Shown here: in pieces, positions 4,666 through 49,044 of the stretch | Layout: each line of letters begins with the position of its first letter | Position numbering within the stretch: position 1 is the stretch's first letter | NCBI GenBank assembly: GCA_021775595.1 | Contig: JAJFHN010000006.1 | Location: 1 to 64,000 of the forward strand | Direction: 5' to 3' | Length of the DNA: 64,000 nucleotides | DNA from: Hyphomicrobiales bacterium | Lineage (GTDB): Bacteria > Pseudomonadota > Alphaproteobacteria > Rhizobiales > Methyloligellaceae | The notes under the pieces: generated by a model | The model's database searches: none | What the model saw: the letters and a program-made list of their open reading frames with translations, nothing else | What the model was told of the DNA's origin: nothing | Made by a program: the position numbers and the translations under genes

Positions 4666-4744
4666 AGTGTGCTCCAAGGTCCATGCGGGAGGATGCAGGC
4701 GGACCGAGCCTATTGGATTGGCCGGAAAAAGGGAAACGGGCGAC

Positions 4745-6091
4745 ATGCGCTCTAAGGTCCGAGAGGACGATACGATTTTTGCGCTCTCGAGCGCGCCAGG
4801 GCGTGCGGGCATCGCCGTGCTGCGGGTCTCGGGCAAGGACGCGGGCCAGGCGCTCGAAGCCTTGGCCGGCGTGCGGCCAAAGCCGCGTCAGGCGCAATTG
4901 GCGCATCTGCACGATCCCGCGACAGGTGAGGCGCTGGACCGGGCGCTGGTGATGTGGTTCGAAGGCCCCGCCAGTTACACCGGCGAGGATACGGCAGAGT
5001 TTCACGTTCATGGCGGCCGCGCCGTGATCGCCGGCGTACTCGACGCGCTCACCGCCCTTGACGGTGTGCGTCCGGCAGAGGCGGGGGAGTTTTCGCGGCG
5101 GGCCTTCGAGAACGGTAAATTCGATCTGACGGCCGTCGAAGGCATCGCAGATCTCATCAATGCGGAAACCACAGCGCAGCGCCGCCAGGCGCTGCGCCAA
5201 AGCACTGGCCGGCTCGGTGCGCTCTATGAGGCGTGGCGGGCGGATCTGCTGGCAGCCCTTGCACGGGTCGAGGCGGCGCTCGACTTTTCAGACGAAGCTG
5301 ATGTGCCGGGCGAGGTGGACCGAGAGGCGCGGCCGGTGGTCGAGCGGCTGGTGGATGCGATCGGCCGCCATCTCGATGACCGGCATGGTGGCGAACGCTT
5401 GCGTGAGGGCTACCGCGTGCTGATTGCGGGTGCGCCCAATGCCGGCAAGTCGAGCTTGCTCAATGCGCTCGCCCGACGCGAGGCGGCGATCGTCGCCGAG
5501 GAAGCGGGGACGACGCGTGATGTAATCGAAGTCCATCTCGATCTTGGCGGTCTGCCGATCACGGTTATGGACACCGCCGGCATCCGCGCGGCGGCGGGCG
5601 GTGTTGAGAAGGAAGGTATTCGCAGGGCGTTTGAACGGGCCGAGGACGCTGATTTGGTGATTTGGCTGGTTGATGGCAGCGCGCCCGACTGGTTGCCGCC
5701 CGATGGTTTGGCGCGCCAGGGGCCCATGATTGTGCGTAATAAGATCGATCTCATCGAAGCATCGGAATCATCTGGTGAAAACATTCAACATATTGATATA
5801 TCAGTTAAAAATGATATTGGAATCAATGAACTTGGTGCTGAAATAGAGGCCCGCGCCGGCGCCAGTCTCGGTTCGACCGAGGCGCCGCAACTGACGCGCG
5901 CGCGGCACCGCCACGAGCTTGAGCTCTGCCGCGCGGCGCTCGAGCGATTTCTGAGTGAGCCTTTCGAGGCGCTTGAGCTCAGGGCCGAGGACTTGCGTCA
6001 GGCCGCCGCGGCGCTCGGGCGCATCACCGGGCGCATGGATGTCGAGGACGTATTGGATCTGGTGTTCGCAGAGTTTTGTATCGGCAAGTGA
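4745..6091 (+). CDS. mnmE: tRNA uridine-5-carboxymethylaminomethyl modification GTPase MnmE
   Basis: 448 residues. With MnmG it makes the cmnm5 modification of wobble uridine-34 in certain tRNAs in the cytoplasm. An N-terminal tetrahydrofolate-binding domain is followed by a helical domain interrupted by the G domain: P-loop GAPNAGKSS (~229), TTRDVIE (G2), DTAG (G3), NKID (~332, G4). The C-terminus ends FCIGK, the family's conserved CxGK motif. The start at 4745 is chosen because [16 protein letters not shown] aligns with the family N-terminus; the open frame goes 26 codons further up into the divergent promoter. Bases 5775-5845 inside the G domain are strikingly AT-rich compared with the rest, but the frame is intact. 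Confidence 0.96.
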
Positions 6092-6104
6092 GGCGCGGTC
6101 AGAT

Positions 6105-6120
6105 TGTTTCACGTGAATCA
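6105..6120. promoter_or_regulatory. parS-like centromere site 1
   Basis: TGTTTCACGTGAATCA lies in the mnmE-mnmG gap. It differs at one base from the palindromic ParB-binding consensus TGTTTCACGTGAAACA known from Bacillus and Caulobacter. It is 3.5 kb upstream of parB, which supports a real parS. Confidence 0.75.
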
Positions 6121-6185
6121 ATCCGACGACCCTGCGCGGCAAGAAGCTTTGACGGAAATTTTGGGAATCGGTAGGGTCGCGCGCG

Positions 6186-8096
6186 ATGACCAAGGGACCT
6201 GATAATAGCTACGACGTGATCGTGGTGGGCGGCGGACACGCGGGCTGCGAGGCGGCTGCCGCGGCGGCCCGCCTTGGCGCGCGCACTGGCCTCGTCACCC
6301 ATCGCTTCGACAGCATCGGCGAGATGTCGTGTAACCCGGCGATCGGCGGGCTCGGCAAGGGCCATTTGGTGCGGGAGATCGACGCGCTCGATGGATTGAT
6401 GGGGCGGGTTGCCGATGCATCAGGCATCCAGTTTCGAATACTGAACCGCTCCAAGGGGCCAGCCGTTCAGGGGCCGCGGGCCCAAAGCGATCGCGCGCTC
6501 TACAGAAGCGCCATGCAGGATGCGATCTCCGGGCAATCGGGGCTTGAGGTGATCGAGGCGGCGGTCGAGGACTTGATTGTCGCCGAGGGCCGCGTGGGCG
6601 GTGTCGTGCTCGGCGATGGGCGGCACCTTCACGCCGGTGCGGTTGTGCTCACCACGGGCACGTTCTTGAACGGCCTTATCCATATGGGCACGCGCCAGAT
6701 CCCGGCGGGGCGTCATGGCGATGCGCCAGCGATCGGTCTCTCCAAGCGGCTCTACGCCCTGGGTCTTGCCATGGGGCGGCTCAAGACGGGCACGCCGCCG
6801 CGCCTTGAAGGAACGACGATCGATTGGGCGCGACTTGCCGAACAGCCGGGCGATGAGCCGCCGGTGCCGTTTTCATTTATGACCGACCGGATTACGACGC
6901 CGCAGGTGGTCTGCCACATCACCCACACGCAACCCGAAACCCACGCCATCATCGCGGCCAACCTGGCGCATGCGCCGATCTATTCGGGCCAGATCGAAAG
7001 CACCGGCCCACGTTATTGTCCTTCGATCGAGGACAAGATCGTGCGCTTTAAGGAGCGTCAGTCACATCAGGTCTTTCTCGAACCTGAGGGCCTCGACGAC
7101 AGCACGGTCTATCCCAATGGGCTTTCTACGTCTCTGCCCGAAGAGGTGCAGCTGGCGTTTCTGAAAACCATACCGGGCCTTGAGTCCGTTTCGGTCATAC
7201 GGCCGGGCTACGCCATCGAATATGACTATGTCGACCCGCGCGAACTCGCTCCCAGCCTGGAGATCAAGTCGCTGTCGGGGCTCTTCCTGGCAGGCCAGAT
7301 CAACGGCACGACCGGATATGAAGAGGCGGCGGCCCAAGGACTTGTTGCCGGGCTCAATGCGGCGCTCAAGGCGAGCGGCGCGGCAAATGTCTTTTCGCCG
7401 ACGCGGGCCGACGCCTATATGGGCGTGATGATCGACGATCTGGTGACGCGCGGCGTCTCAGAGCCTTATCGGATGTTCACATCGCGGGCCGAATACCGGC
7501 TGACGCTTCGGGCCGACAATGCCGATCAGCGCCTGACGCCGCACGGCATTGCCCTTGGCTGCGTGGGACGCAACAGGGCGGTCGCTTATAATGAGAAAGC
7601 CGATACGCTAGCTCGCGCGCGGGCGGCGCTCGAGGGCTTCAATCTGACGCCAGATCAGGCGATTGCAGCCGGAATTGCGGTCAATCGCGACGGACGCCGC
7701 CGCAGCGCGTTTGATTTGTTGGCCAACCCGGACATTACGATTGAGCGGCTGTCGGCGATCTGGCCCGATCTGGCGGAACTTGATGCGCCGATTGCCACGC
7801 AGATCGAAGTCGATGCGCGCTATGCAGTCTATTTGGCGCGACAGGAGGCCGATATTGCGGCCTTCCGCAGGGATGAGGGAATCGCCATCCCGTCCGCCTT
7901 TGACTATGACGGCGTGACCGCGCTCTCCAACGAAGCGCGCCAGAAACTGATGCAACACCGGCCGGCGACCTTGGGCCAAGCCTCGCGGATTGACGGCATG
8001 ACGCCGGCCGCGCTGATGGTGCTGCTCGCCCACGTCAAGAAAGCCGCCGATGCCAAGTCCGCAAGATCAAGCCAATCGGGGCGCAAGTCCGCCTGA
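6186..8096 (+). CDS. mnmG: tRNA uridine-5-carboxymethylaminomethyl modification enzyme MnmG (GidA)
   Basis: 636 residues, a normal length for the family. It is the FAD-dependent partner of MnmE in forming cmnm5U34 in tRNA. The N-terminal Rossmann motif is [15 protein letters not shown] (glycines ~15-20). The GidA signatures [15 protein letters not shown] and [16 protein letters not shown] are present, and the C-terminal helical MnmE/tRNA-binding region is complete. The gene follows mnmE after 94 bp that contain a parS-like site, and its 3' end overlaps the rsmG start by 47 bp, as expected for the mnmE-mnmG-rsmG-parA-parB block of alphaproteobacteria. Confidence 0.97.
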
Positions 8097-8754
8097 AGCA
8101 AGCTCTGGCGCCGCGCTGCCCCACATCGTCGACGGGCAGGGGTTCGCCGCCCAGTTCAATGTAGATGACGGGTGTATGGATGCGCTCGCGCGCTATGAGG
8201 CGCTGCTGCGGCGCTGGCAACCGGCGGTCAATCTTGTTGGCGCTGCGAGCCTCGATGATGTGTGGCATCGGCATTTCGCAGATAGCGCGCAGCTGATTGC
8301 GCTGGCGCCGGGGGCCAAATCTTGGCTCGATCTTGGCGCCGGTGCTGGCTTCCCGGGGCTGGTCATTGCGATTTTGGGCGCGAAGACGGGCGCCAGTGTC
8401 ACGCTTGTGGAGTCGTCCAGCCGAAAATGTGCATTTTTGTCCGAAGTGGCGCGCGAAACGGGCGTGGCTGTGGAAATACGAAATGAACGCATTGAATCCG
8501 CGGCAATGGCAGCTACAGTCTCGAACTTCGACGTCGTGACTGCGCGCGGATTGGCGCCTTTAGACAAGCTGTTGCGCCTATCGGCGCCGTTCTTCGGGGC
8601 CCACACGGTGGGGCTGTTCCTCAAGGGTAAGCGAGCCGATTTGGAAGTCGAGGCGGCCAAGCGGGCGTGGACGTTTCACGTGAAACTTGTGCAAAGCCGC
8701 ACGGACCGGCATGCTCGCATCGTCGAGGTGCGCGAACCGATTCCTAAGGGCTAG
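8050..8754 (+). CDS. rsmG: 16S rRNA (guanine-527 N7)-methyltransferase RsmG (GidB)
   Basis: 234 residues. It methylates G527 of 16S rRNA using S-adenosylmethionine; loss in other bacteria gives low-level streptomycin resistance (family knowledge). The SAM-binding loop [14 protein letters not shown] is near residue 95, followed by [14 protein letters not shown] and [14 protein letters not shown]. The ATG at 8050 lies inside mnmG; the first ~25 residues are poorly conserved, so the true start could be slightly later. A perfect 14-bp parS core is embedded in the coding sequence near its 3' end (8673-8686). A GGAGG for parA follows directly after the stop. Confidence 0.95.
8672..8687. promoter_or_regulatory. 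parS-like centromere site 2, inside rsmG
   Basis: CGTTTCACGTGAAACT contains the perfect palindrome GTTTCACGTGAAAC (8673-8686), the core of bacterial chromosomal parS. It sits 78 bp before the parA start. Because it lies in coding sequence, its retention as an exact palindrome favours a selected DNA role. Confidence 0.8.
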
Positions 8755-8764
8755 GCGGAGGAAA

Positions 8765-9604
8765 ATGGTGAAAACGTCGGGATGGGGAGGCGGTCTGCGC
8801 GTGTTGGCCGTCGCCAATCAAAAAGGCGGCGTCGGCAAGACAACCACGGCGATCAATTTAGGCACGGCGCTGGCTGCGGTCGGGCGGCCTGTTGTGATCG
8901 TTGATCTCGATCCCCAAGGCAATGCCAGCACGGGGCTTGGCATCGGCAAGGGGCCTGACGAACGATCCCCCTCGACGCTTGAAGTGCTGCTGGAGACGGC
9001 AAGCATGGCGCAAGCAGCTAAGCCCACCGGAATTCCGCTGCTCTCGATCGTACCGGCGACGGGCGACTTGATGGGGATCGAGCGCGAATTCGCCGCCGGG
9101 CAACACAAAGTCTATCCGCTGCGCAATGCTCTGATCGAATATGCGGCGCACCAGCAGGCGAACGCCGAAGGCCAGGCCAAAACGACCTATGTGCTGATCG
9201 ATTGCCCGCCCTCGCTCAACGTGCTCACCATCAATGCGCTGTCGGCGGCCGATGCGGTTCTTGTGCCGATGCAATGCGAATTTTTTGCCATGGAAGGTCT
9301 GGCGCAGTTGGTGAAGACGATCAACGACGTGCGCGACCGGCTCAACCCCGCGCTCTCCATTCAGGGCGTCGTGCTCACAATGCACGATAAACGCAACCGG
9401 CTTACCCACGAGGTCGAGGAAAACGTTCGGGACGCGCTGGGCGAAAAGGTTTACGCCACATACATTCCGCGCAATGTGCGTGTCGCCGAGTCGCCCTCCT
9501 TCGGCAAACCGATCCTGCTCTACGATCACCAGTGCGAGGGCAGCCGCGCCTATATCGAACTGGCGTCGGAAGTGATCAAGCGGGAACAGCAATTGGCGGC
9601 GTGA
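8765..9604 (+). CDS. parA: Chromosome partitioning ATPase ParA (Soj)
   Basis: 279 residues from ATG 8765, preceded by GGAGG; the open frame upstream runs back into rsmG and is ignored. The deviant Walker A box KGGVGKTT (residues 20-27), the VDLDPQGNAS switch and the DCPPSLN Walker B-like motif identify a ParA/Soj ATPase. It binds DNA non-specifically in the ATP state and moves ParB-parS complexes to segregate the origin region. It is in an operon with parB (12 bp between genes) and next to two parS sites. Confidence 0.97.
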   Translation: MVKTSGWGGGLRVLAVANQKGGVGKTTTAINLGTALAAVGRPVVIVDLDPQGNASTGLGIGKGPDERSPSTLEVLLETASMAQAAKPTGIPLLSIVPATGDLMGIEREFAAGQHKVYPLRNALIEYAAHQQANAEGQAKTTYVLIDCPPSLNVLTINALSAADAVLVPMQCEFFAMEGLAQLVKTINDVRDRLNPALSIQGVVLTMHDKRNRLTHEVEENVRDALGEKVYATYIPRNVRVAESPSFGKPILLYDHQCEGSRAYIELASEVIKREQQLAA

Positions 9605-9615
9605 CGGAGCAAGGC

Positions 9616-10476
9616 ATGACGGCAGGGGTGCAAAAAAAGCGGTTGGGGCGCGGTCTTGTCGACCTGCTCGATGATGCCGCCGATATCGAGACGGCGCGCG
9701 GCATCGAGGGTTACCGCATGGTGGCCTTGGCCTCGCTCAAGGCCAATCCGCAAAACCCGCGTCGGCACTTTGCCGAAGAAGAGTTGGCCGAACTCGCCGC
9801 CTCGATTGGCGAGAAGGGCGTTGTGCAGCCGCTCGTGGTGCGCCCGACAGAAGGCGGCGCCTATGAGATCGTCGCGGGCGAACGGCGCTGGCGGGCGGCC
9901 CAAAAGGCCCAGCTTCACCAGGTGCCGGCTATCGTGCGCCAACTTTCCGACCGCGAGGCGCTGGAGCTCGCGATCATCGAGAACGTTCAGCGCAGCGACC
10001 TCAATGCCATCGAGGAGGCCCGCGGCTATCAGCAACTGATCGAGGCCTTCGACCACACGCAGGAGGAGCTGGCGCAAATTATCGGCAAGAGCCGAAGCCA
10101 TCTGGCCAATATGCTTCGACTGCTGAAATTGCCTGACGGCGTTCAGGACATGATCCGGGAGGGCCAGCTCAGCGCCGGTCATGCGCGGGCGTTGATCGGT
10201 CGCGACAATGCCCTCAAGCTGGCCAAGCAAATCATCGCCAGGGCGATGAGCGTGCGAGCGGTAGAGGCATTGGTGAAGGCGGACGAGGCGCCGCGCAGCA
10301 AACGCAAGGCGGCGATCAAGGACGCCGACACGCGGGCGGCTGAAAGCGAATTGAGCGACGCGCTTGGGCTGTCGGTTACGATTCAAATGCGGCGCGGCGA
10401 AGCCGGTGAACTGCGTATTGCCTACCGCAATTTGGACCAGCTCAATGAGGTTCGACGCAGACTCTTAGAGCTCTAA
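9616..10476 (+). CDS. parB: Chromosome partitioning protein ParB (Spo0J), parS-binding CTPase
   Basis: 286 residues from ATG 9616 (GGAGCAAGG upstream). The N-terminal domain has the CTP-binding motifs GERRWR (88-93) and ENVQR (122-126). The helix-turn-helix follows (GKSRSHLANMLRLLKLP), then a C-terminal dimerisation domain. It loads on parS as a sliding clamp and recruits ParA and SMC (family knowledge). The parS sites at 6105 and 8672 are likely its own targets. It converges with holA, with 21 bp between the stop codons. Confidence 0.97.
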   Translation: MTAGVQKKRLGRGLVDLLDDAADIETARGIEGYRMVALASLKANPQNPRRHFAEEELAELAASIGEKGVVQPLVVRPTEGGAYEIVAGERRWRAAQKAQLHQVPAIVRQLSDREALELAIIENVQRSDLNAIEEARGYQQLIEAFDHTQEELAQIIGKSRSHLANMLRLLKLPDGVQDMIREGQLSAGHARALIGRDNALKLAKQIIARAMSVRAVEALVKADEAPRSKRKAAIKDADTRAAESELSDALGLSVTIQMRRGEAGELRIAYRNLDQLNEVRRRLLEL

Positions 10477-44841: not shown

Positions 44842-45005
44842 GGCGCGTCAGGACGCGATCTTGCACACCAATGCTGCATGCCCGGAAGACGACCGCGAAA
44901 CAACTGTCGCTTGACGTTCGCCTTCGGCCAGGCTGACCTCTCTTGAGCTGTGAAGAGGTGTACTTATTATATCGGCCGGAACAATCCATCACACTGGGAG
45001 CTCAT

Positions 45006-45729
45006 ATGACTGATAAGAAAGTGGCGGTAATCGCCGGTGCCGGCGAAGGGGTTGGCAAGGCACTGGCCCAGCGCTTCATGCAAGGCGGTTTCGAGACGGT
45101 GATCGCCGCGAGAGACCGAGAGAAGCTCGATCGCATTGCCAAGGATCTAGCGAGCGAGGGCGCCCTTCATGTCGTGCCCACCGACCTCACTGAGCCCAAG
45201 GCGGTTAAAGCGTTGTTTGATGCGGCAGCTGGTCATGGCGCGCTTGGCGCCGTCGTTTGCAACGCTGCCATGGTCCACTTCCAACCGATACTCGAGGTCG
45301 AGCCCGAGACGTTCGAGCAAATTTGGCGCATCGACTGTCTTGCAGGGTTCCTCGTTGGTCAGGAAGCAGCACGCCGCATGGTGCCCAACAAAGAAGGCAG
45401 CATCATCTACACTGGTGCAACAGCGTCGGTCAGAGGCGCTGCGTCCTTTGTCGCCTTTGCCGCCCGCCAAGGCCGGGCTCCGCTCGGTGGCCCAATCAAT
45501 GGCGAGGTCGCTGGGTCCGGAAGGCATTCATGTCGCGCACGTTGTGATCGACGGCGTCATTGATACGCCCGCCAACTGGGAAAAGATGCCCGACCATATG
45601 AACAGTCTCAAAGATCAGCGTCTCATGAAGCCTGTGTCTATCGCCGAGGCGTGCTTTGCGCTGCACCAGCAGGAACAGAGCGCCTGGTCCTTCGAGATCG
45701 ACTTGCGGCCCGCGGCAGAAAGTTTCTAG
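45006..45729 (+). pseudogene. Short-chain dehydrogenase/reductase, frameshifted
   Basis: The first frame begins at ATG 45006 (MTDKKVAVIAGAGEGVGKAL) with the Rossmann glycines and the NAAMVHF stretch, then loses homology after SFVAFAA at 45461. The second frame continues perfectly from there: AKAGLRSVAQSMARSLGPEGIHVAHVVIDGVIDTP to the stop at 45729. Removing one C from 45463-45465 restores the whole protein (~240 aa). Either a recent inactivating insertion or a sequencing error in a C run. The restored YxxxK site reads FAAAK (Phe for Tyr), a variant seen in one SDR branch, so catalysis by the usual mechanism is doubtful. Confidence 0.8.
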
Positions 45730-45878
45730 AGGGCGCGTGATTTGTCCTGCCGAAGGTTGGGAGAGTAATTAGCCGCTTGCGGGCTTGGGTTGCCGGCAGC
45801 CGGCCTTCTCGTCGAATAGCCATGATCTTCGAGACAGTCCAGTGTCGCTACCGGGATTTTGTTGCCGCGGGGGCTGGC

Positions 45879-46127
45879 GTGAACGTTTCTAGACTTGCTC
45901 TGCTGCTTGTCGTCTTTATCGACGTCATGGGTTTTGGGCTGATCCTGCCGATCTTCACCACCATCCTGCTTGATCCCAGCCAGGGCTTCCTGCCCGCAGA
46001 TACGCCGCGTGCCACCAGGCAGTTCGACTATGGCGTCGTGATTGCCGTGTTCTTTCTATTCTATTTTCTGGGCGCGGCCTTCATCGCCAAGATCTCCGAC
46101 TATATCGGACGCAAGCAAGGGATCATG
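45879..46127 (+). pseudogene. MFS transporter N-terminal fragment (truncated)
   Basis: From GTG 45879 the frame encodes MNVSRLALLLVVFIDVMGFG, then IFTTILLDPSQGFLP, a second TM VVIAVFFLFYFLGAAFI and the MFS A-motif KISDYIGRKQGIM. These are the first ~83 residues of a TetA-like transporter. Homology stops exactly where a 16-bp repeat begins (46128), and no remainder is seen downstream. It is therefore a fragment, not a gene. Confidence 0.75.
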
Positions 46128-46143
46128 TTAGCCATAAGCGGAC
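46128..46143 (+). repeat. Direct repeat, copy 1
   Basis: TTAGCCATAAGCGGAC, identical to 47124-47139. It forms the break point of the truncated MFS gene. The AGCGGAC core resembles the arms of the palindromic repeats at 50016. Confidence 0.85.
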
Positions 46144-46766: not shown

Positions 46767-47075
46767 CTACGTTCGGCTTCGTGGGAATTGCGACTCTCTC
46801 AAAACCTCACATACATAAATGGAGTATTCCGTGTAGAGCTTCTTCCGGCCGAATTTCTGTATCTCGACATGTACGGGATGGTTGCGAAACGCGCGGAGCA
46901 GTTCCTCTGATTCCCAGTGATGGATGGAAACGCGCTCGCCATCTTCGGCCACAAAGGTCTTGTTGGATATATAGCCGGGCATCGATTCGGCGATCTCCTG
47001 CACGCGGGCTCTCAAGGGCTCGGCTTCCGCCTCGGCTTCGGGATTGGTGCGGGATCTGAAAATTGCGATCACCAT
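46767..47075 (-). CDS. Antibiotic biosynthesis monooxygenase (ABM) domain protein
   Basis: 102 residues. The dimeric ferredoxin-like ABM fold is recognised from MVIAIFRSRTNPEAEAEAEPL, ESMPGYISNKTFVAEDGERVSIHHWES, EELLRAFRNHPVHVEIQKFGR and a last strand YTEYSIYVCEV. Family members are small monooxygenases or heme/quinone-binding proteins acting in the cytoplasm; the substrate is unknown. It shares orientation with the MoaF-like gene, 232 bp upstream of it. Confidence 0.85.
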   Translation of the reverse strand: MVIAIFRSRTNPEAEAEAEPLRARVQEIAESMPGYISNKTFVAEDGERVSIHHWESEELLRAFRNHPVHVEIQKFGRKKLYTEYSIYVCEVLRESQFPRSRT

Positions 47076-47123: not shown

Positions 47124-47139
47124 TTAGCCATAAGCGGAC
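47124..47139 (+). repeat. Direct repeat, copy 2
   Basis: TTAGCCATAAGCGGAC, identical to copy 1 at 46128-46143, 996 bp apart. The MoaF-like and ABM genes lie between the copies; the phosphagen kinase stop is 30 bp beyond this copy. Confidence 0.85.
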
Positions 47140-47168: not shown

Positions 47169-48260
47169 TCAAGCGTTTTCCATCGCCCAGAGCGCGGCGG
47201 CTCCATCGTAAAGCCGGCGCATAATCTCCATCTCCGTGACGCCGAGCCGGGCGCTGGGAGAGATATCCACCAAGCCGCCTTCACCGGCATCGGAATGTTC
47301 ACCGCCGGCACCGCGAACGGCCAGCCCGAGCGTCTTAGCTTCGCGCTTCAAGCGGGTAAGATCGCGACCGTTCGAGGTAAGACCGGGAAGCCGCATATGT
47401 AGGCTGGCGCGCATGCCAGCGCCCAGATTTGTCGGGCAGCTGGTCACATTGCCGTAGCGCGGCGAAGTCGCAAAGGCTGGCAGCAAATCCTGCAAGCACT
47501 CAAGCCCAATACGGAGGCGTTCAAACAACACGTTCAGATTGCCACCATGTTGCATGGCCATGATGCGCAAGTGATCCTCTTCACCCACCCAGACCAGAAA
47601 ATCTTCAGCGCCCGAAACATACATGCCTCGGCCATGGGGCCAGTCCGCGCTGATGCCCGCCACATTGAGATAGCGGTCCGTGCTCATGTCCTTGAACATC
47701 TGATGCGCCTTCACGCGGCGGTCATATTCGGCGGCATCGATTTCATTGGCTGTGCCCGGAGTGATTGAAAAATAGCTGCCGCCGAATGCGGGGTCTTCAA
47801 TCAGCCGCGCGAAGGCTTGCGCCGCAAGCTTCTCCAGAGCCACCCGCTGCTCCTTGTTCATGGCACCCGGCAAGGGAAACGACCCCACATTGCGCGCCAC
47901 CCGCACCCGCATGGAAACTTCTTTCAGGCGTGCGTCAATGGCGCCGAGATCACAGGGGGATGCACCAGTATCCCAGTCATGCTTCTGCGCAATTTCTGTT
48001 TCGGCAGAAATGCCGTGGAAATCTCGTATCATCGGATCCAGCATTGGCGCGAACCGGTCATAGTCGTCCGGGTTCATAGCGTAAGCGCCCATCTGGCTAT
48101 CCGGATTTTCGATGCCGGTCTTGATGATCCTTTCCAGCCGCTGGCGCGCGGGCTCATCGAGACTGCGGAAATAGTCTTCATCGAAATGACGCGCCATCAA
48201 GTTTCCCGGATTGGCTTTTCTTATGGTCCAGATTCTTGCAATCATCTGATCGGGCGTCAT
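47169..48260 (-). CDS. Phosphagen (ATP:guanidino) kinase, arginine/creatine-kinase family
   Basis: 363 residues, full length for an arginine kinase monomer. The N-terminal all-helical domain is present, including GAYAMNPDDYDRFAPMLDP (~58-76), which corresponds to the guanidino-specificity region GVGIYAPD... of animal arginine kinases. The catalytic domain has SMRVRVARN (Arg118, Arg120), WVGEEDHLRIMAMQ (Glu227/Glu228, Arg232), TSCPTNLGAGMRAS (Cys275, Arg284) and RGAGGEHSDAGEGG (Arg316, Glu321). These match the nucleotide-binding arginines, reactive cysteine and two catalytic glutamates of the family. It reversibly phosphorylates a guanidino compound; arginine is the first guess. It differs from bacterial McsB, which lacks the N-terminal domain. 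The flexible loop Arg of arginine kinase (GTRGEH) is Gly here (GAGGEH). It sits in the accessory region. Confidence 0.93.
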   Translation of the reverse strand: MTPDQMIARIWTIRKANPGNLMARHFDEDYFRSLDEPARQRLERIIKTGIENPDSQMGAYAMNPDDYDRFAPMLDPMIRDFHGISAETEIAQKHDWDTGASPCDLGAIDARLKEVSMRVRVARNVGSFPLPGAMNKEQRVALEKLAAQAFARLIEDPAFGGSYFSITPGTANEIDAAEYDRRVKAHQMFKDMSTDRYLNVAGISADWPHGRGMYVSGAEDFLVWVGEEDHLRIMAMQHGGNLNVLFERLRIGLECLQDLLPAFATSPRYGNVTSCPTNLGAGMRASLHMRLPGLTSNGRDLTRLKREAKTLGLAVRGAGGEHSDAGEGGLVDISPSARLGVTEMEIMRRLYDGAAALWAMENA

Positions 48261-49044
48261 GGTTCAATCACTCCGCATTCGGACGGTTGTGACTCCTATT
48301 GCCTGCTTGTCAATGCGCATAACCGACTGACCGGCGCCGAGCGACAATCCCTGGCCGTTCTTGCCGCAGGTGCCAATACCTAATGTCCAGTAACCCTTTG
48401 GTGGTCCAAATCCAGAATTGGAATCTGGCATGCTCGCGGACGCGCTGCATCCATAGTTTTTCGCCTGCGATACCGATGTTTATTGACCGCCTTATACGTA
48501 TGGAGTCATGATCAATGAACCGACTGCCGCCTCTGGCCCCATGGCGGCCAGCAAGCGTGCCGGAGATCGGTTTGGTTCCTCTTCACTGATCAGACCGGAA
48601 TGCCAGCAGTCGTGGTCAGACGCTGAGAAGAAGGAGTGAGGTAATGTCACCACCTGACAGTATATTCGGACCTCGCTCACCAGCGAGGTCCCGGATCGGC
48701 TAACGAGCCAACACAATGTCATCTTGCTTGGCCGAGTCGAAAACAGCAGATATTTCAATCATCAATAGCGAGGGCGACAGCTCGAAGATATGAGCTGTCA
48801 GCGCCTCGCAGATCAGCCCGTTTCTAAATCGGGTATTGCGAAAACCAATCGCAAAAGAGCCCGCTGAGCATTTGGCCGCGGGGCTCATTTGCGTGTGCGC
48901 ACGGCGTCCACTTTGAGCTGGAGAACCGACGCTGATCACGGTAATGGCCTGATGGATTGCCAGTGGCCGAACAATTGCGCATCGCAGGATTGAGCGTTGT
49001 TGCTAATGTTGGCCCGGATTCGCTACGAAGAGGGACCGCAATTG
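48261..49044. other. Gene-poor gap of the accessory region
   Basis: 784 bp in which I see no convincing gene. It contains a perfect 10-bp-stem hairpin (48668-48691) and a few short open frames with no recognisable similarity. Its composition looks less GC-biased than the flanking core genes. The promoter of the phosphagen kinase must lie at its left end, the promoter of the FNT gene at its right end. Confidence 0.5.
48668..48691. repeat. Perfect inverted repeat in the gap
   Basis: GGACCTCGCT and AGCGAGGTCC, 10-bp stem with a 4-nt loop CACC; no adjacent T tract, so not a normal terminator on either strand. Confidence 0.7.

Follow-up and report, generated by a model that had tools for sequence, protein, structure and literature searches.

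Arginine kinase (AK) is best known from animals and protists, with few bacterial exceptions, and serves in energy buffering. Bacterial AKs have been reported from Desulfotalea psychrophila, Myxococcus xanthus, Sulfurovum and Moritella sp. PE36, and whether they are ancient or derived from eukaryotes is described as debated and unsettled (PMC6429109). A full-text literature search returned no paper joining arginine kinase, alphaproteobacteria and phosphagen; most subscription journals lay outside its reach, so this absence means little. The gene described here was found in a window of 64,000 nucleotides (the whole stretch of DNA analysed), and its sequence, together with a structural model, makes it very probable that it encodes a catalytically competent AK (ATP:L-arginine N-phosphotransferase), the chemistry of the enzyme being strongly predicted.

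The first-pass annotation had placed a full-length phosphagen kinase (PK), labelled arginine/creatine, at positions 47169-48260 of the window. This was confirmed by an ORF intact from ATG to stop and encoding 363 aa (from the ORF list and reading of the sequence), in which both Pfam domains scored over their cutoffs (PF00217, 164.3 bits for a cutoff of 22.4; PF02807, 44.6 bits for a cutoff of 25.7). The N-terminal PF02807 and the C-terminal PF00217 are carried on one chain of about 360 aa, an arrangement expected of an AK as a member of the PK family. The annotation had left out the strand, which is minus; the plus strand is interrupted by stops across 47169-48260. The gene and its putative translation signal are as follows:

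47169-48260, minus strand: gene for a predicted arginine kinase of 363 aa; start codon (ATG) at 48260 and stop codon at 47169-47171
48261-48285, minus strand: GGAGTG, a likely ribosome binding site, some 10 bases 5' of the ATG (gcGGAGTGattgaaccATG), from reading of the sequence

A scan for consensus promoters and terminators at the kinase gene gave no pattern above chance. Ka/Ks values of 0.06-0.18 against three relatives show that the protein is under purifying selection and maintained; since full-length homologs with such values exist, an ORF produced by chance is not an issue.

Residues were mapped by alignment on the numbering of Limulus polyphemus AK, with 37 bacterial members aligned, and the active-site overlay on the Limulus enzyme rests on this sequence alignment; the roles of the mapped residues follow established work on Limulus AK. 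The catalytic landmarks previously listed for the protein (the two Glu, Cys275 and five nucleotide-binding Arg) were all present, with Cys275 correctly numbered. Limulus E225, E314 and C271 correspond to E228, E321 and C275 in the window protein, Limulus R124, R126, R229, R280 and R309 to R118, R120, R232, R284 and R316, and S63 and Y68 of the arginine site to S55 and Y60, all of them invariant in 37/37 members. Two loops were located within the gene:

48081-48098, minus strand: guanidino specificity loop SQMGAY, codons 55-60 (Ser55 and Tyr60 being Limulus S63 and Y68), with no CK-type insertion, by alignment
47292-47315, minus strand: flexible loop RGAGGEHS, codons 316-323, with the catalytic Glu321 and the phosphate-binding Arg316, by alignment

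If the mechanism is that of Limulus AK, the loop S55-Q-M-G-A-Y60 of the N-terminal domain would hold L-arginine by its amino acid end, the arginine guanidinium would be aligned and polarised by E228, E321 and C275, and R118, R120, R232, R284 and R316 would clamp the phosphates of Mg-ATP, the flexible loop around 316-328 shutting over the active site while phosphate passes in either direction between ATP and arginine. Inside the cell, phosphate would be stored as phosphoarginine and given back to ADP on a jump in ATP demand; by analogy with known AKs, ATP buffering via phosphoarginine is the most likely physiological role.

L-arginine as the predicted substrate is well supported by the specificity loop, which has the length of the AK type and lacks the four-residue insertion of creatine kinases (CK). 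The loop being of AK type, the arginine half of the earlier label was kept and the creatine half dropped. CK was also rejected as a candidate on residue grounds, with Tyr60 and not Val at position 68, and Glu321 and not Val at position 314, beside the loop shorter by four residues. Substrate switches are common in the PK superfamily, and the protein could be a kinase of the same fold acting in vivo on another small guanidine (e.g. agmatine, taurocyamine or glycocyamine), a reading favoured by positions 64-65 of the specificity loop, which are Gln-Met in the window protein and Gln/Ser-Met in the bacterial proteins vs Gly-Val in arthropod AKs. It is nevertheless unlikely, given the invariance of the S63 and Y68 equivalents, the AK-length loop, the Arg found at position 68 in taurocyamine kinase and the naming of the nearest solved relative (7ews) as an arginine kinase by its depositors. 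No arginine-metabolism gene that would support the substrate was found among the neighbours of the kinase gene. For an enzyme acting on arginine, Gln-Met at 64-65 and Ala-Gly at flexible-loop positions 311-312 would leave room for changed kinetics or for some preference for another guanidine.

The flexible loop reads RGAGGEH, as the first-pass annotation had given it, and the substitution of Gly for the Arg at the position of Limulus Arg312 is real. The accompanying suggestion of altered affinity did not hold up as well, because Gly is a character of the clade (33/37 bacterial members) shared with Paramecium tetraurelia AK3 and with CKs, and Arg is kept in L035, a close relative from the host's own family; the sea anemone AK has His. 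The Arg-to-Gly change alone is thus no sign of altered function, and the position is a variable site with no evidence for changed affinity.

An AlphaFold2 model of the window protein, built with 33 family sequences, reached a pLDDT of 94.6 and a pTM of 0.91. Its best structural match was P. tetraurelia AK3 (7ews; Z 44.4, 2.0 A over 352 residues, 38% identity), followed by the transition-state complex of Limulus AK (1bg0; Z 41.3, 2.3 A over 346 residues). The superposition on Limulus AK that had been proposed as a check gave a full-length match, and the modelled protein shows the two-domain PK fold over its full length (Z 41-44).

The catalytic domain PF00217 is also that of McsB, and NCBIfam McsB models match the window protein weakly, so that a protein-arginine kinase of the McsB kind, with protein side chains as its target during a stress response, had to be weighed. 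Such a function is scarcely credible here: the scores are 43-103 bits for McsB cutoffs of 381-679, the N-terminal domain absent from McsB is present, the McsB genes sampled belong to ctsR-mcsA-mcsB-clpC operons, unlike the window gene, and in the full tree McsB fell outside all PKs, its branch being 3.3 long and supported at 100/100. Nesting inside McsB, which had been named beforehand as a refutation, was thus not found, and the statement that the protein is not a McsB fragment was borne out; a fragment and a McsB-like kinase were both discarded as candidates (curated-model scores of 103 vs 385 bits and 90 vs 500, separate branch).

Within the PKs, the bacterial members formed one clade with Paramecium AK3 as its sister among the references used, and animal AK, taurocyamine kinase (TK) and CK formed another group outside. 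Support for bacteria plus AK3 was 99/97 in the full tree with McsB; dropping two long rows gave 95/87, and 100/100 was reached once McsB was removed and further taxa were included; constraining AK3 to group with the animal PKs was worse by 6.7 log units and was not rejected (p-AU 0.23). An arthropod-like AK sequence served as PDB query only for drawing PDB alignments and was used in no tree. Any reading of the origin of the family and of the direction of transfer is tentative, given the long branch of AK3, the small number of eukaryotic references (all animal save AK3) and trees that do not include the published bacterial AKs. The explanation by horizontal transfer given in the first-pass annotation was retained in part: transfer is likely, but not as an isolated transfer from an animal, the family being coherent, bacterial and outside the sampled animal enzymes, with a ciliate AK as nearest solved relative. 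It is conceivable, though we consider it rather doubtful, that free-living Alphaproteobacteria have an old bacterial AK lineage, sister to the ciliate AK3 type and perhaps its source, with a bacteria-ciliate phosphoarginine exchange separate from the animal lineage.

A single scan of GTDB contigs returned 32 relatives or loci with 60-85% identity, nearly all from uncultured alphaproteobacterial MAGs (by record titles Hyphomicrobiales, Rhodobacterales, Rhodospirillaceae and others), many of the records bearing marine-sounding names; deeper family members occur in another proteobacterial class. Genome tallies were obtained by Pfam searches of whole genomes counting PF00217 domains of any type, and gave 9/297 genomes in the host's order, 3/30 in its family, 2/385 in its class and 3/299 in its phylum (the window's own genome included), and 2/237 in the phylum reached through L004 (starting genome included). 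The sporadic occurrence in bacteria that had been claimed is borne out by these counts, yet the sequences make up a family: the window kinase is a member of a coherent, patchily distributed bacterial family, rare but not unprecedented. The firm case outside Alphaproteobacteria is L046, whose 153-kb contig belongs to a genome that is 99% complete, and the records of L004 (Polyangiaceae) and L011 (Cocleimonas) may be binning errors. In a genome outside the class, which also has an intact AK, a remnant of an animal-like second PK is spread over two frames (L047/L048, G745:C37:46028-46260).

No member of the bacterial AK clade was found on viruses or plasmids in two IMG/VR scans and in protein searches of phage and plasmid collections, the hits being McsB-type proteins and, from a plasmid of Bandiella (an endosymbiont of a ciliate), a single distant PK. 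Diverse PKs outside the window's clade were observed in a single order of Alphaproteobacteria with small genomes of 1.0-1.7 Mb (7/217 genomes; L034, L069, L070, L071/L049 and L073). One of these kinases comes from Candidatus Bandiella woodruffii, which lives as an endosymbiont in the ciliate Euplotes, and is encoded on a plasmid that also bears a transposase.

Gene neighbourhoods are shared only among near relatives, and no conserved operon partners were found. Most of the genes next to the kinase have unrelated housekeeping roles (e.g. nadD/rsfS, thrS, aconitase, trpA, glnD, ilvD), and in L031 the AK gene is flanked on both sides, by nadD-like and rsfS genes. Two well-separated AK lineages are present in the host's own family, L035 resembling the window protein and L036/L018 falling among Rhodospirillaceae-type sequences. 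Unconserved neighbourhoods, two distant lineages in one host family and patchy occurrence together point to repeated single-gene transfer among bacteria, in which the clade would have moved as a single gene between Alphaproteobacteria and into other bacteria.

Around the kinase gene, the accessory region with pseudogenes and repeats described in the first-pass annotation was recovered, with a broken MFS gene, a split SDR (short-chain dehydrogenase) gene and a 16-bp repeat, TTAGCCATAAGCGGAC, which has three copies in the genome, the third at G000:C67:3935:

45777-46139, plus strand: MFS transporter N-terminal fragment (pseudogene), matching only itself in the genome (Pfam and genome search)
46128-46143, plus strand: 16-bp direct repeat, copy 1, at the break point of the MFS gene (repeat search)
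46767-47075, minus strand: downstream neighbour, a 102-aa protein with an ABM (antibiotic biosynthesis monooxygenase-like) domain, no functional link implied (Pfam)
47124-47139, plus strand: second copy of the 16-bp direct repeat, roughly 30 bp past the 3' end of the kinase gene (repeat search)

The SDR gene (44943-45729) is split over two frames, owing either to a frameshift or to an error of assembly. The host is an uncultured bacterium, and its draft assembly of 103 contigs is presumably a MAG. At 4667-10473, a row of genes resembles mnmE, gidA, rsmG, parA and parB (ORF starts only), suggesting from sequence resemblance that the window may be chromosomal and near the origin.

The isolation of the kinase gene in this accessory stretch, where genes are broken and a repeat occurs, and the patchy distribution of the family, would suit a recent stray gain from a eukaryote, decaying and non-functional here. 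That account is very improbable in view of the intact ORF under purifying selection, of the homologs in other bacteria (one with 85% identity and some 30 besides), and of the base composition: GC (58%) and GC3 (66%) are close to those of the neighbouring genes and only slightly below them, and there is therefore no strong foreign signature. The maintained gene for a probable AK remains the preferred reading.

Compared with known systems, the window protein has its best single-domain PDB sequence match in P. tetraurelia AK3 (266 bits), with which it has in common the loop RGxGGEHS, the DISPSAR motif and the SLTPG/SITPG segment, not seen in the aligned animal AKs; AK3 is, however, a ciliate enzyme with 41% identity over the aligned part, and has Ser where the bacterial clade and the animal AKs have Tyr68. 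The AKs of Limulus and other arthropods have the same catalytic residues, S63/Y68, AK-length specificity loop and fold (Z 41), but differ by their 34% identity, their TRGEHT loop and their place on a separate animal branch. McsB has the catalytic domain PF00217 in common and differs by the missing N-terminal domain, its operon and its distant branch. The AKs reported from Desulfotalea, Myxococcus, Sulfurovum and Moritella are likewise described as bacterial, and no alphaproteobacterium is among those listed. Bacterial AKs were thus already known and the window protein is a further one with a useful evolutionary angle: a bacterial clade that counts over 30 members and has its nearest solved relative in a ciliate gives the ancient-or-acquired question a testable form, and its members are candidate enzymes with which the part played by phosphoarginine in bacteria could be studied.
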